Assembly: GCA_020072925.1 (NCBI GenBank) | Contig: JAIQGA010000016.1 | Location: 1 to 54,319 of the forward strand | Origin: Terriglobia bacterium | Lineage (GTDB): Bacteria; Acidobacteriota; Terriglobia; UBA7540 | Length of the DNA stretch: 54,319 bases | Direction: 5' to 3' | Shown: in pieces, positions 14,574-35,309 of the stretch | Numbering within the stretch: position 1 is the first letter of the stretch | Layout: every line of letters starts with the position of its first letter | The notes under the pieces: generated by a model | What the model saw: the letters and a program-made list of their open reading frames with translations, nothing else | Databases searched by the model: none | What the model was told of the DNA's origin: nothing | Translations under genes and position numbers: made by a program

Positions 14574-14677
14574 AAGTTCTCAGTCCTCAGTTATCAGCGC
14601 CAATTGCCGTTCACATTGTTCAGTAGTCGGTTCCTGCTGCCATCAACTAACTACTGACAACTGACTACCGACAACTT
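14574..14677. repeat. 104-bp hairpin element with 7-nt periodic inverted arms
   Basis: The left arm (14574-14597) and the reverse complement of the right arm (14654-14677) agree at 19 of 24 positions. Both arms are made of heptamers on a TCAGTNN theme, for example ACTAACT, ACTGACA, ACTGACT and ACCGACA in tandem at 14646-14673. The core is 56 nt. The element fills the gap between the permease stop codon, which its last base overlaps, and the ATPase ATG. The unit resembles the heptanucleotide STRR repeats described in cyanobacteria. Confidence 0.7.
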
Positions 14678-21023: not shown

Positions 21024-22415
21024 ATGATCCTTCTCAAGGCTTTGCTGATCGCCGGTCTCGTGGCGCTCAACGCCTTCTTTGTGGCGGCGGAGTACGCCCT
21101 GCTGAGCGTCCGACGCACGCGCCTGGACCAACTGGCGCGGGAAGGGCGCCCCCGCGCGCGCCTGGCGCTCTCGCTACTCGGCGATGTCGGCGAACTGTTT
21201 TCCGGGATCCAGCTTGGCATTACCGTGGCCAGCCTGATGATGGGCTGGATCGGCGAAGCGATCATGGCGGATGCCATCAACAGCGCGCTCGAGGGATACC
21301 TCAGCCGGTTTGCGCGCGCCGCGGTGGCGCATTCGATTGCCGTGGCCGTAGCCTTTCTGCTCATCACCATTCTGCTGATGGTGCTGGGTGAACTGGTGCC
21401 CAAGGCGCTGGCTTACGAACGCGCGGAACAATGCTCACTTCTGATTGCCAGGCCCATGTTCCTTTTCCTGCAATTGAGCCGCTATCCCGTGCGCGCGCTG
21501 GACGGCCTGGCCCGCGCCGTTTTGCGGGGTTTGGGGCATCGCCCGGGACGCGGCCATGGTGGGCTGCACACTCCCGAGGAGGTCAAGCTGATTATTTCCT
21601 CCATCCGCCGGCGTGGCCTGCTCGGCGAGGACCAGGAGGAAATGATCCAGAGCGTGTTCGACCTCCAGCACGTTCGCGTGCGCGAGATCATGGTGCCCTG
21701 GACGCGCCTCACCTGCCTTCCTCTCGCCCAGGATTTTCCCACGCTTCTTGACCGGATCGTCAAAGACCAGCATTCCCGCATCCCTATCTACGAAGGCCCG
21801 CCGGACCATATCGTCGGCATTCTCTACACCAAGGATTTGCTGGGTGTCCTCCAGGACCGCCTGCGCGACCGGGTCCCGATGGAGGCGTCGTTCGATCTTC
21901 GCGCCATCCTGCATCCGCCCATGATCGTGCCCGAGGCGATGCCGCTCAGCCAGATGCTCGATGAAGCGCGTCGCCGGCACGCGCAGATGGCGCTGGTCGT
22001 CGACGAATTCGGGACGTACGTGGGTCTGGTAACCATCGAAGACGTGCTCGAGCAGATTGTGGGTGAAATCCAGGATGAGTACGATCGCGAGGAATCCGCC
22101 ATCCGCAGGCTGAGCGAGACCGTCCTGGTGGTGGATGCTTCCGTCAACTTGCGCGATCTGGCGAACGACTACGACATCACTCTGCCGCGCGATGCCGGGT
22201 ACGAAACCCTGGCGGGCTTTATGCTGGCGCGGCTGGGCATCATTCCCAAGGGCGGTGAGACCTTTGTATTCGAGGGCCGGCGCTACACGGTGGTGGAAAT
22301 GGAGGGGCGGCGGGTGTCTAAAGTTCGCATTGAGAAGCTTCCTGCCGCAGTGGTGGCGCAGGCCGGCGCCGCGACAAGCCGCCCCGCCAACCCCGCGGTC
22401 CAAAGTAGGCAATAG
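21024..22415 (+). CDS. CNNM/CorC (HlyC/TlyC-type) CBS-domain membrane protein
   Basis: A 463-residue protein. The N-terminal DUF21/CNNM domain (1-190) has four hydrophobic segments and the motif VLGELVPKALAYE. A CBS pair (about 205-335) contains VREIMVPWTRLTCLPL and MALVVDEFGTYVGLVTIEDVLEQIVGEI. The C-terminal CorC/HlyC domain (about 345-435) ends near VSKVRIEKL, followed by an Ala/Pro-rich tail. Family members act in Mg2+ or Co2+ efflux or homeostasis; haemolysin names are historical. It has its own promoter and no obvious operon partner. Confidence 0.87.
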   Translation: MILLKALLIAGLVALNAFFVAAEYALLSVRRTRLDQLAREGRPRARLALSLLGDVGELFSGIQLGITVASLMMGWIGEAIMADAINSALEGYLSRFARAAVAHSIAVAVAFLLITILLMVLGELVPKALAYERAEQCSLLIARPMFLFLQLSRYPVRALDGLARAVLRGLGHRPGRGHGGLHTPEEVKLIISSIRRRGLLGEDQEEMIQSVFDLQHVRVREIMVPWTRLTCLPLAQDFPTLLDRIVKDQHSRIPIYEGPPDHIVGILYTKDLLGVLQDRLRDRVPMEASFDLRAILHPPMIVPEAMPLSQMLDEARRRHAQMALVVDEFGTYVGLVTIEDVLEQIVGEIQDEYDREESAIRRLSETVLVVDASVNLRDLANDYDITLPRDAGYETLAGFMLARLGIIPKGGETFVFEGRRYTVVEMEGRRVSKVRIEKLPAAVVAQAGAATSRPANPAVQSRQ

Positions 22416-30426: not shown

Positions 30427-33400
30427 TTACCAGTCGAGGCGTAACGAGAATTGAATCTGGCGGGAATTCTGGGCGGAACTGATCTTGCCGAAATTGGACG
30501 TTCCAAAAATCAATCCCGGCCGATCGAAGTTGGGATGGTTGGTCAGGTTAAAGCAGTCCGTGCGGAAGAGCAAACCCATGCGCTCGCTGAGCCGGATATG
30601 GCGCTGCAGGCTTAAGTCCCAGGCGCCCAGTCCGGGACCGGTGATGACGTTCCGGCCTTCGCTGCCGGGAATGCTGAACGCGCCGAGCGCATCAAAATAG
30701 ACCGGCGGAGTGCGAAAGGCATTAGTGTTAAACCATTGAGCAGGGTCGCGCTGGCCGACCGGCAGGTTGGGATTCGCAACGAGGTCCGGCCGATCCGTGC
30801 CGTTGGATTCCGTGCCGCTGAGCGCGGTAGGCAAGATGGCGGTCATCGGCTGTCCGGCTTGAAGCGTCAGGATATTGGCCAGATTCCATCCCCCGAAAGC
30901 CCGCGACGCTGCGCCCTGCCTGGCCCAGCGACGACCGGCGCCGAAGGGCAACTCCCAATTGCTCGAGAGCACGAACCGGTGGCGAACGTCAAAGTCCGAA
31001 AGCCCGCGCTCCCCGTTCAGGTTGTAGTTGTCCTGGGGCTGGTTGGTTCCATCCAGGCCCGAAGCCGTATCGATAGACTTGCCGTAAGTATACCCGGCCA
31101 CAAAAGAGAGTCCGCGCACGAAGCGGCGCTCCAAGCGCAGAACCAGGGCATTGTAATTGGAGTTCACATCCGTCGCGCGCACAAACTGGTTGCCACCCGG
31201 TTGCGGGTGATAGCCGCGGCGTTCGTTCGGCAGGTTCGGAACACCCTGATTCTGCAGCCCGCGCCGGGGCAGCTTGTGCGCGTCGGAGCCCGTATAACTC
31301 AGGGAAAATACCGTATTGGGCGTCACTTCGTGCTCGTACGACAAGCTCCATTCGTAAACGTAACCGTTGCGAATACCCGGAGGCGACGAGATGGCGACCG
31401 GCGGCGCGTTACCGAGCTGGTAGGCGAGCGGGTAACTCAAAGGCGATGGGGCGAAAGATTGTCCGCAGGCGCCCGGACCGAAAAAGCGGCAGAGGTCGAG
31501 GCCGAAAAGGAATTCGGTGATGGGGGCGCTCAGGCGCGTTTCCGCGGAGTAGTCCAGTTCTCCCAGGGAATTGAAGACCCCCAGGCCGCCGCGCAGCGAG
31601 CTCGTGCCATGCCCGGTGAGATCGTAGGCGAATCCCAGGCGGGGCGCCCATCCCGCCCAGTCCGGCCGGATCAGCGAGGGAGGCAGGCTGGCTTGCTGGG
31701 ATGTGATATAGTAAAGTCCATAATGCCCGGTAAGGTCCTGGATGAAGGGGTTACTGACGAGGCTGGCGGCCTGGCGCTGATCGTTGCGGACAATGAAGCG
31801 TGTGGCGTTGCTGGGATCGAGGATGGACGCGCGGCCGTCGGCATTGGTGGACGGAGAATAGAATTCCTCGCGCAGTCCATAGGAAAGTGTCAGGCGACGG
31901 GTGGCGTGAAATTCGTCGGCGAAGTACGCCCCGAAATAATCCAGCCGGTCGTTGCCCCCGGAATTGCCCGCCTGCGCAAAAGAAAGAAAGGGCCGCCCCA
32001 GGAGAAAATCCGAAAACGCTGTTCCCGAAACCGAGCCGAAACCGTCCTCCACCAGATAGAACAGCCGGTAGCGGCGGACGTCCGCTCCAAACTTCCAGGT
32101 GTGGCGGCCCTTGACCCAAACCAGGTTGTCGGTGAACTGGAAGGTGTGGTTCTTGCGGATCTGCGGTTGGAAGATGTCGCTGTCGCCCAAGTCGGCGTAG
32201 CCGGGAACGTTGATCGCAGGGATGCCGTCATTCGTGGCGCCCGGCGCGCGCGTGATGTCCAGCGACTGGAGAAAACCACTGCGGATGTTCTGCGCTTCCT
32301 TGGTTCCCAGGTAATACGCGTAGCCGAAACGGAAGTCGTTGATCAACGTGGGTCGGAGGACCGAGGTGAGACCCAGGGCCAGGTTGCGTCCGGTATCGTC
32401 CTTCCAAGTGCCGAATCCGGGCGGCGCGGAAGGGTTCTGGGCAAAGGAATTGGGGACAAACGGGAACAACTGCGCCCCGTTGAACAGCAGGAACCGACCG
32501 AAAAGCTGGTGGTTGGCCGTCAGTTGATGATCGAGGCGCGCCAGAAACTGGTCTGTGTTGACCTGGTGAAGCCCGACGTTGATGTTGTTGTTCTCGAGCG
32601 CTTGGGCATTCGGCAGGTTGGGCAGCGGAACCCTCGCGAGGATGGCCTGCGAGAGCGGATCGATCCGGGACGGCGGTATCTGGTTTCCAGGGAAAGGCAG
32701 GCCGGTCAGCGGATCGATAATAGCCGGGAAGGGACTTCCAGTAAGCGGATTAGCGCCGCTGAAATCGCCGCTGCGAAGCGCCTGCCTCGGCAAGAGGGGG
32801 ATGCGAAGGCCTTCATAGTTGGTGAAGAAGAACGTTCGATCGCGCCGGATCGGCCCGCCCAGGCTGGCCCCGAATTGGTTCTGGCGATAAGGCGGGATCG
32901 GCCGCGTCGGATCGTCAAAGAAGTTGCGCGCATCCAGCGCGCTGTTGCGCAGAAACTCGTAAGCGGTCCCCGAGAAGCGGTTGGCGCCCGAGCGCGAGGC
33001 GATGTTGACCTGCGCGCCGGAGGAAATGCCTTGGTCGGTAGAATAGGAATTTTCCACCACGCGGAATTCTCGAATGGCGTCGATCGAAGGGTTGACGGTG
33101 AGACTATACGCGAAAGGTTCCATCAGCGTGACGCCGTCGAGAGAATAGTTGTTGCGCTCGGAGCGCTGGCCATCGACCGAAAAACCCAGCCCCAGTGCCG
33201 CGGTGTTGAACTGCTGGCTGGCGCCGTTCGGGTAGGGAGGCACGGCCCCGGCGGCCAGCAGCGCCAGTTGCGAGAACTGGCGGCCGTTGAGGGGCAGAAG
33301 GCTTACACGCTGATTGGCGATCTCGTCGCCGATGGCCGGAGTCGCCGTCTGCACCAGGGGCGGCGCGGCGCTCACGACCAGCGCGGTCTGGGAACGGGGA

Positions 33401-33750
33401 AGCTCCAGCGCGAGATCCAAGCGCAACGTCTCGCCCACGTGCACGATCAGAGTGGGCATCACCTTCGCCGCAAAGCCTGTTTTTTCGACCTTGAGCTCGT
33501 AGGTCCCGACCGGCAAAAGCGGAAAAGTGTAATACCCTTGGTCATCGCTGAGGGTCTGCCGCACCTGCTCGGTGGCGTTATTCCGCAATTGGAGCATGGC
33601 CCCGGGCACCGCCTCGCCGCTCGGGTCCAAAACGATACCCTCGAGGTGGCCATTCCAGGATTGTCCGAACAGTCCGGTCGCACCTGGCAAGCAAAGCAGC
33701 ATAACGATCGCAAAAACTCTCGCCGGGAGAGTTTGTATGGGACAGAGCAT
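30427..33750 (-). CDS. TonB-dependent outer-membrane receptor with carboxypeptidase-regulatory domain
   Basis: An 1107-residue Oar-like outer-membrane protein. After a signal peptide (VFAIVMLLCLPGATGLFGQ) comes a CarboxypepD_reg domain (residues about 30-115: LEGIVLDPSGEAVPGAML, GYYTFPLLPVGTYELKVEKTGF), a plug-like region (about 125-260) and a large beta barrel ending RQIQFSLRLDW with a terminal aromatic residue. The start is ATG 33750, preceded by CGGAG. An FMN riboswitch on the same strand ends 133 nt upstream, so expression is probably controlled by FMN, which would suggest flavin uptake. The substrate is not visible in the protein itself. Confidence 0.9.
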   Translation of the reverse strand: MLCPIQTLPARVFAIVMLLCLPGATGLFGQSWNGHLEGIVLDPSGEAVPGAMLQLRNNATEQVRQTLSDDQGYYTFPLLPVGTYELKVEKTGFAAKVMPTLIVHVGETLRLDLALELPRSQTALVVSAAPPLVQTATPAIGDEIANQRVSLLPLNGRQFSQLALLAAGAVPPYPNGASQQFNTAALGLGFSVDGQRSERNNYSLDGVTLMEPFAYSLTVNPSIDAIREFRVVENSYSTDQGISSGAQVNIASRSGANRFSGTAYEFLRNSALDARNFFDDPTRPIPPYRQNQFGASLGGPIRRDRTFFFTNYEGLRIPLLPRQALRSGDFSGANPLTGSPFPAIIDPLTGLPFPGNQIPPSRIDPLSQAILARVPLPNLPNAQALENNNINVGLHQVNTDQFLARLDHQLTANHQLFGRFLLFNGAQLFPFVPNSFAQNPSAPPGFGTWKDDTGRNLALGLTSVLRPTLINDFRFGYAYYLGTKEAQNIRSGFLQSLDITRAPGATNDGIPAINVPGYADLGDSDIFQPQIRKNHTFQFTDNLVWVKGRHTWKFGADVRRYRLFYLVEDGFGSVSGTAFSDFLLGRPFLSFAQAGNSGGNDRLDYFGAYFADEFHATRRLTLSYGLREEFYSPSTNADGRASILDPSNATRFIVRNDQRQAASLVSNPFIQDLTGHYGLYYITSQQASLPPSLIRPDWAGWAPRLGFAYDLTGHGTSSLRGGLGVFNSLGELDYSAETRLSAPITEFLFGLDLCRFFGPGACGQSFAPSPLSYPLAYQLGNAPPVAISSPPGIRNGYVYEWSLSYEHEVTPNTVFSLSYTGSDAHKLPRRGLQNQGVPNLPNERRGYHPQPGGNQFVRATDVNSNYNALVLRLERRFVRGLSFVAGYTYGKSIDTASGLDGTNQPQDNYNLNGERGLSDFDVRHRFVLSSNWELPFGAGRRWARQGAASRAFGGWNLANILTLQAGQPMTAILPTALSGTESNGTDRPDLVANPNLPVGQRDPAQWFNTNAFRTPPVYFDALGAFSIPGSEGRNVITGPGLGAWDLSLQRHIRLSERMGLLFRTDCFNLTNHPNFDRPGLIFGTSNFGKISSAQNSRQIQFSLRLDW

Positions 33751-33883
33751 GCTTGGAGTCTCCGAGCGCACAGGCAATATCTCGTTAAAGGGCAGGGAAG
33801 AAGCAAACAGGCATGCGCCGACACAACGCAGCTTGCGCGCGGCGATACAAGCGCCCGCCGCGTGTGCGGACGAAGACCGGCCG

Positions 33884-34150
33884 GACCTTCTCCCATCCGG
33901 ACTTTACCGTCGGCCCCGGAATTTCACCGGATCGTGGGAGCCTTTAGAACAGTGACGAATGAAGAGTGATAAGTGACGAGCCAAAGAACTTGCGTCCATC
34001 GAAGCGAAATCCGCCTTCGATCTACTGCGTCGCTCCCGGCTTGTCACTCGTCACTTGTCACTGTCCTTAAGTTCCCTCGCGGGCTATACCGCCGATCGGG
34101 AATTGGGAAGCCACTTACGCGCATGCTTCCCTCACCCTGCCCCGAAGGTC
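33884..34150 (-). promoter_or_regulatory. FMN riboswitch (RFN element) with two enlarged arms
   Basis: Read on the minus strand, conserved RFN blocks appear in order: P1 GACCTTC (34150-34144), GGGGCAGGGTG, then AATTCCCGATCGGCGGT, ATAGCCCGCGAG, GATCCGGTGAAATTCCGG, GGCCGACGGTAAAGTCCGG, ATGGGAGAAGGTC closing P1 with a perfect 7-bp pairing (33890-33884). Usual length is near 130-150 nt; this one is 267. A 27-nt insert with a perfect 7-bp stem (GGGAAGC/GCTTCCC, 34105-34131) splits the P2 loop between GGGTGA and AATTCCC. The variable P4 arm is 142 nt (33934-34075). No intrinsic terminator is evident before the receptor gene. Confidence 0.88.
33949..34064. repeat. 116-bp hairpin element with 7-nt periodic arms inside the riboswitch P4 arm
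   Basis: The left arm (33949-33982) is made of GTGACGA-like heptamers (GTGACGA, ATGAAGA, GTGATAA, GTGACGA). The right arm (34038-34064) is the reverse complement theme (TTGTCAC, TCGTCAC, TTGTCAC). The arms pair over about 27 nt, with one extra heptamer on the left. The core is 55 nt and contains a 7-bp inner stem ATCGAAG/CTTCGAT on the minus strand. Architecture and core length match the element at 14574-14677. Confidence 0.75.
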
Positions 34151-34168
34151 ACTATTCAATTCGCCCTA

Positions 34169-34331: not shown

Positions 34332-35309
34332 GTGCCGCAAACTGAAACCAGTACCCAAGCCGCAACGCCCCAGGCGCGACGCCGTCGCGGTGAACCCTGG
34401 GCCGTGGGCCAAATCCTCGGTTACTCCTCGGCCAACATTTTCGATCGTGTCGCCGTTTCCGACGTCAATCCGCTCGTCCCGCTCGTCGGCCCTTTCTTTC
34501 GCGGCCTGCCCAGCCTGTTGCTGGGGGTTTTCCTGGTCTGGAAGAACCACACCTTCGGCCAGATGCGGCCGGGCTCGCGGAGCTACATCGGCGCGCGCGC
34601 CATTTGGCCGTTTGTGGTGGCGGGAGTTCTCTCCACGGCGGGCCTGTTCGTTTACTACTACGCGATCCGGGTCGGCGGGGTCATCATCACCATCCCTGTG
34701 CTCGAGACCTACGTGATCTGGGGCACGCTGGTGGCGTGGTTCTTTCTCGGAGAAAGGTTCCATGGGTTGGTGCTGCTGGGTGTGGGCCTGATTGCCGGCG
34801 GGCTTGTCCTGCTTTCTCTCGGCCAATTGCGCGGGCAGCCAATCTCGCCCCTGTGGTACTGGGCCATTCCGCTGGCGCTGTTCACGGCCCTTTCCTACGG
34901 AGTGTCAGGGTCACTGTGGCGCGACGGCCAACTGCACGGCGCGCACCAATCCACGGCCATCTTGCTGCAGTTTGTAACCAGCGTGGGCGTGGCATTCCTT
35001 TGGCTGGTCGCGCTCGGGCGCGCCGCCGCGCTCGTGCACACGTCGACCCGCGACGTGGCTGCGCTGCTGGCGAGCGGAGTGCTTTCCGGCATTGTGGGAA
35101 TCTACTGCATGTTTACCGCGCTCCGCCTGATGGCGGTGACGCGCGTCTATGCCTTCTCAGCGCTCAACCCCCTGGTCGCCGCGCTCCTGGCACGCTTTTT
35201 CCTCCATGAATACCTGAACCTTCCCATGTTGGCAGGGATCCTGTTGGTTTGTGTCGGGGTTGCGTTGACTCAAATCTTCCGGCCCAAAGACGAGAAACAG
35301 GCGCCCTGA
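34332..35309 (+). CDS. EamA/DMT-superfamily membrane transporter
   Basis: A 325-residue protein with ten hydrophobic segments in two EamA halves: VVAGVLSTAGLFVYYYAIRVGG and VIWGTLVAWFFLGERF in the first, LASGVLSGIVGIYCMFTALRLM and NPLVAALLARFFLHE in the second. The E-R-F and HEYLNLPMLAGILLV ends of each half are typical for the drug/metabolite transporter superfamily. GTG start, weak ribosome-binding site, own TATAAT promoter. It is divergent from the FMN-riboswitch-controlled receptor. Some members of the superfamily (RibN) move riboflavin, so this could be the inner-membrane partner; this is speculation from position. Confidence 0.8.
   Translation: MPQTETSTQAATPQARRRRGEPWAVGQILGYSSANIFDRVAVSDVNPLVPLVGPFFRGLPSLLLGVFLVWKNHTFGQMRPGSRSYIGARAIWPFVVAGVLSTAGLFVYYYAIRVGGVIITIPVLETYVIWGTLVAWFFLGERFHGLVLLGVGLIAGGLVLLSLGQLRGQPISPLWYWAIPLALFTALSYGVSGSLWRDGQLHGAHQSTAILLQFVTSVGVAFLWLVALGRAAALVHTSTRDVAALLASGVLSGIVGIYCMFTALRLMAVTRVYAFSALNPLVAALLARFFLHEYLNLPMLAGILLVCVGVALTQIFRPKDEKQAP

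Follow-up and report, generated by a model that had tools for sequence, protein, structure and literature searches.

Heptamer repeats in arm P4 of a Terriglobia FMN riboswitch

The locus and its riboswitch

The window (the whole stretch of DNA analysed, 54,319 nucleotides of contig JAIQGA010000016.1 from a Terriglobia bacterium) contains an FMN riboswitch upstream of a gene for an Oar-like outer-membrane receptor. A preliminary description made from the sequence alone had named this RNA as the host of a repeat hairpin, and the identification is borne out by RF00050, which matches the minus strand at 34153-33881 with 85.9 bits against a gathering score of 66.2 (E 4e-20; cmscan with permissive filters). 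Model positions 1-138 are all covered, and the conserved letters agree in the covariance-model alignment. Default cmscan of the whole window does not report this riboswitch, which its fast filters skip, because two long inserts extend the aptamer to 273 nt: the L2 T-loop holds a hairpin of 27 nt, and P4 is an arm of 141 nt. The features of the locus are as follows.

30427-33750, minus strand: Oar-like outer-membrane receptor gene (CarboxypepD_reg and OMP_b-brl_4; Pfam), presumed to be the regulated gene
33881-34153, minus strand: FMN riboswitch aptamer (RFN element) with all six helices (complete RF00050 match, 85.9 bits; helices checked)
33898-33909, minus strand: P6 stem-loop of the aptamer (RF00050 match, helix check)
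33915-33931, minus strand: P5 stem-loop of the aptamer (RF00050 match, helix check)
33936-34076, minus strand: P4 arm of 141 nt with GGGA/UCCC as closing strands (covariance-model match, fold, helix check)
33952-33979, plus strand: 3' heptamer array GTGACGA ATGAAGA GTGATAA GTGACGA, partner of the 5' array (repeat search, fold)
33980-34040, minus strand: hairpin core, which forms a stem-loop of its own and lacks a counterpart in other copies (fold; own-genome matches at chance level)
34041-34061, minus strand: 5' heptamer array GTGACAA GTGACGA GTGACAA, three exact units (sequence, repeat count)
34105-34131, minus strand: L2 T-loop hairpin (GGGAAGC...GCUUCCC), present in all readable riboswitches of the family
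34332-35309, plus strand: divergent EamA-family transporter gene (Pfam)

The receptor gene starts at an ATG at 33750 or a TTG at 33777. In 14 related loci a homologue of it lies next to the riboswitch, and in 9 related loci the EamA-family neighbour is kept. A possible alternative to P1 lies within window positions 33790-33890, where pairing is conceivable between the 3' strand of P1, with GGGAGAAGG, and a downstream CUUCUUCCC; an intrinsic terminator was looked for on the minus strand, and none was found.

The P4 arm: architecture, predicted fold and genomic copies

P4 is closed by GGGA at 34076-34073 and UCCC at 33939-33936, and between these strands lie two inverted heptamer arrays. The 3' array is the weaker of the two; its four heptamers, on the other strand, complement the 5' array imperfectly and exceed it by one unit. 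Inverted heptamer arms and a length of about 141 nt agree with the preliminary description, which had given 142 nt; its core of 55 nt does not. The arms differ in length by a single unit, their pairing leaves a bulge of 8 nt, and the core between them is about 61 nt. A repeat search of the window found a 16-nt pair, 94% complementary, in the P4 arms, and three tandem units with at most three mismatches occur three times in the window, always within P4, against a chance expectation of 0.04.

Folded in isolation, the P4 hairpin reaches -62.5 kcal/mol, compared with -38.4 +/- 3.9 for shuffled sequences (z = -6.3). In the fold of the whole RNA, the insert is expected to form 48.9 internal pairs and 1.2 pairs to the core. 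The best structure with the aptamer core enforced lies 2.3 kcal/mol above the unconstrained one, a gap that stays at 2.3 when P4 is replaced by GAAA. Because the cost of the core is unchanged by the insert and the insert pairs with itself, the predicted fold leaves the aptamer undestroyed, and P1-P6 can form together with the conserved junction sequence in a constrained fold. The unconstrained minimum-free-energy structure favours mispairing of P5 and P6, which is also true of the RNA without the insert. The closing pairs of P4 have a probability of 0.50 with the real insert and 0.00 with shuffled inserts, none of 100 shuffles reaching the real value. Two earlier proposals, that the GGGA...UCCC flanks close P4 and that the insert stays confined to P4 and spares the aptamer core, therefore hold in the predicted structures. 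The companion idea of P4 as one long coaxial helix needs narrowing, for crystal structures show P4 stacked on P3 only when no ligand is bound (Wilt et al., PMC7573352). The same authors suggest that P4/L4 matters for switching and helps to set the ligand-free conformation, so a neutral effect of a long P4 on switching is not guaranteed.

The insert had been described as a repeat, and its heptamer units are indeed dispersed in the genome of the same bacterium. Searching that genome with the P4 arm returned some forty short matches, mostly intergenic hairpins (position judged by eye) built of the same heptamers in inverted pairs around differing cores and often lying beside tRNAs; searching it with the hairpin core alone returned chance-level matches only. 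Exact tandem GTGACNA pairs (GTGACNAGTGACNA) number 27, against 0 for the reversed control. In 287 kb of this genome there are 18 period-7 tandem runs, compared with 0-3 at other periods except 14; these own-genome counts rest on pattern searches and on the 287-kb sample. The runs have many different units, are often inverted pairs and are sometimes nested in one another (L322-L341 and the window). Heptamer arrays show preferred end letters, with A before the first unit and GC or GT after the last. Across the class, the GTGACNA triple is present in 23 of 61 genomes. Elsewhere in the window, a 14-nt unit, CAACTAACTACCGA, twice the length of 7, is repeated in tandem at positions 14644-14676 and probably represents another heptamer family.

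Related riboswitches, other sites and another phylum

Within the class, the riboswitch is nearly confined to this Terriglobia family (26 of 39 family genomes); in the one class genome outside the family that has it, P4 is of ordinary short length and L2 is plain. In all 25 readable family riboswitches, repeat-free ones included, P4 measures 46-146 nt. One of them (L044) has a short P4 although the same genus has long ones; a further relative (L055) carries an N at the P4 spot. Clear heptamer arms are found in the P4 of 11 family riboswitches, the others having non-repeat stems, and lag-7 self-similarity appears in 12 of 35 long P4s, with none at lags 4-6 or 8-13. The preliminary description had pictured a single, unusual settlement in a short stem and had called P4 the one tolerant site. 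The comparison supports neither statement: P4 is already long throughout the family, repeat-bearing P4s occur in many genera, and a hairpin is present in L2 as well, an arrangement common in Chloroflexota and others (at least 119 stretches). Non-repeat lengthening of P4 in relatives, which it had set against its own reading, is there in part, because family riboswitches without the repeat also have a long P4. The idea of a tolerated repeat holds, though as a recurrent process acting on a P4 of already considerable length.

Whether P4 carries heptamers goes with the genome's repeat pool. If a genome with at least 15 tandem heptamer pairs is classed as pool-rich and one with fewer as pool-poor, at least three exact heptamers occur in P4 in 10 of 11 rich and 0 of 14 poor genomes, a difference with a Fisher p of 3e-6 when kinship is ignored; G018, the sole pool-rich exception, has two heptamers in P4. 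The dialect of P4, GTGAC or GTGGC, likewise tracks that of the genome (rho 0.71, p 0.02, n = 10, kinship ignored): in genera g5 and g6, with GTGGCNA-rich genomes, P4 has GTGGCNA beside GTGACNA, and most others have GTGACNA. Because the heptamer-bearing P4s group together on the rpoB tree (3 parsimony changes against a shuffle mean of 7.6), few independent events lie behind the pool association. Degenerate heptamers are detectable in the P4 of L035 (p < 0.005) and L039 (p = 0.05), and the genomes of both have almost no GTGACNA.

Arm mismatches give a view of selection on the stem. In P4s without clear heptamers, G-U exceeds A-C by 24 to 9 (p = 0.014), a modest effect that depends on a simple local alignment; selection on a transcribed RNA stem would be expected to give such an excess. 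The same bias, predicted for heptamer P4s under RNA-stem selection, is absent there (42 against 34), and its absence would be as expected of young repeats.

Heptamer hairpins also stand at other sites. At one orthologous tRNA-tRNA spacer, 13 genomes carry a heptamer hairpin, degenerate in a few (L292-L321), and in 16 others the spacer is only 4-43 nt, which provides a natural filled and empty site. In the RNase P RNA of a relative (G012, L125), one arm bears a hairpin of CTAGGGA/CTAGGTG heptamers, nested within a TGTAGCG...CGCTACA hairpin, and many RNase P RNAs of the family are 450-660 nt long. In the RNase P RNA arms of the bacterium's own genome, a different hairpin is present and heptamers are absent. 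The palindrome half TGTAGCG(S)CG, shared with RNase P arms, also lies at window position 22277; its 4 matches in 287 kb point to another hairpin with dispersed copies. When 40 dispersed heptamer loci were scanned against Rfam, adjoining tRNAs were the only structured RNAs recovered, so a general enrichment of heptamers inside structured RNA is unsupported.

Beyond the phylum, CCGTAAN-type heptamers make up the P4 arms of an FMN riboswitch in a Chloroflexota metagenome-assembled genome (L214), where these heptamers are also dispersed as hairpins (12 against 1 in the control). This is an independent instance of a P4 built from a genome's own heptamers.

Origin of the repeat arm and its meaning

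We consider it probable that the P4 arm is one copy of a dispersed heptamer hairpin that lengthens P4 and is kept similar to the genome's pool. On this proposal, the element would fold on its own during transcription because its two arms are complementary, and once self-folded it would merely lengthen P4 while the six-helix FMN pocket stays intact. As the self-folding insert would spare that pocket, the receptor gene could still be controlled by FMN. Over a lineage's history, P4 may be renewed time and again from heptamers of the same genome, or held close to them in sequence, by re-insertion, gene conversion or slippage; after loss of the pool, the arm would decay in sequence with its stem retained.

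The strongest competitor, to which we give roughly one chance in three, is vertical descent only, in which a heptamer hairpin entered once in the family ancestor and then drifted or decayed with no exchange with the pool. The clustering of heptamer P4s on the rpoB tree in three changes fits such a history, as do the vestigial heptamers of relatives without a pool and the tRNA-spacer element, likewise shared by 13 genomes at a single orthologous position. That the dialect of P4 follows the genome pool argues against it. Congeners, too, share only 0.62-0.72 identity in P4, with unrelated cores, against 0.84-0.94 in the aptamer outside P4; because P4s without heptamers diverge about as fast in most pairs (0.64-0.70), speed of divergence alone is weak evidence on this point. 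Birth in place strikes us as unlikely; on this view, replication slippage with hairpin-templated correction would have created the heptamers within P4, and the genomic copies would have arisen separately in the same manner. The excess of period-7 runs with many units suggests that some general period-7 copying exists, but slippage alone hardly yields the same GTGACNA unit with preferred end letters at many sites and in many genomes.

We regard as equally unlikely that a long, rigid P4 was selected as a means of tuning, in which stacking of P3/P4 against that of P1/P6 alters the ligand-free state. The reported part of P4/L4 in setting the ligand-free conformation (PMC7573352) would suit it, and so would the long P4 in 25 of 25 readable family riboswitches and the RNA-selection strand bias of the non-repeat P4s; it sits poorly with the spread of P4 lengths within the family, 46-146 nt, with the short P4 of L044 beside long congeners and with heptamer P4s that lack the strand bias. 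There is next to no chance that the sequence is merely repeat-like or an assembly error. The genomes are metagenome-assembled and one P4 has an N, but three matches to the tandem units were seen where 0.04 were expected, and the same P4 architecture in 10 more genomes refutes this reading.

How the dispersed element spreads was approached through known mobile repeats. Neither a target-site duplication (looked at unsystematically) nor a transposase nor an empty riboswitch turned up. Rickettsia palindromic elements and bacterial MITEs (PMC10969869) resemble the heptamer hairpin as dispersed hairpin formers that enter functional sequence and are tolerated. Here the arms, inverted repeats with some preferred end letters, are heptamer arrays, the cores are unrelated between copies, and neither target duplication nor cognate transposase was found. 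REP elements with their RAYT (Y1) transposases are likewise short, dispersed intergenic hairpins. We rejected mobilisation by RAYT: in relatives, Y1 genes are not flanked by heptamer hairpins, a GTGRYNA array lying within 1.5 kb at only 4 of 30 Y1 loci and at none on both sides.

Other heptamer systems provide closer parallels. STRR repeats are heptamers, and in 1997 Vioque reportedly found them inside cyanobacterial RNase P RNA, so that entry of heptamer repeats into a structured RNA is already known. The repeats described here, 7-nt tandem units that are dispersed and mostly intergenic, resemble STRRs and similarly place genome-wide short tandem repeats inside a structured-RNA gene; they differ in phylum, in RNA and, as far as is known, in unit, and here inverted arms form a riboswitch helix. 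The TAACTGA repeats of Beggiatoaceae are abundant intergenic heptamers as well, but those are nearly all direct (one indirect), have a single unit and mostly lie just upstream of start codons (PMC4679880). It is also known that riboswitches accept inserts: in the parts of Barrick and Breaker 2007 (PMC2258182) drawn on here, riboswitches tolerate long stem-loop insertions, and in the FMN aptamer a helix can interrupt the T-loops. The present RNA follows that pattern, with a complete aptamer, long stem-loop inserts that spare the core and a helix in L2; that its P4 insert copies the host's dispersed heptamer element has no equivalent in those parts of the paper. A search of open-licence papers gave no precedent for a dispersed repeat forming a riboswitch arm.

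More broadly, we suggest tentatively that period-7 hairpin repeats may, in several phyla, supply material again and again for the peripheral helices of structured RNAs, entering tolerant arms such as P4 of the FMN riboswitch and those of RNase P, being rewritten along with the pool and, once the pool has died out, persisting as ordinary stems under pairing selection. The differing lengths of variable arms in riboswitches and RNase P are ordinarily left without an explanation, and here one source can be named and traced. A repeat family that bears dialects shows arm sequence following the genome, decay after loss of the pool and recurrence in another phylum. Default scans can miss real riboswitches that carry such inserts. 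In a soil bacterium, the riboswitch that senses vitamin B2 shows that junk-like repeats can become parts of a working RNA.
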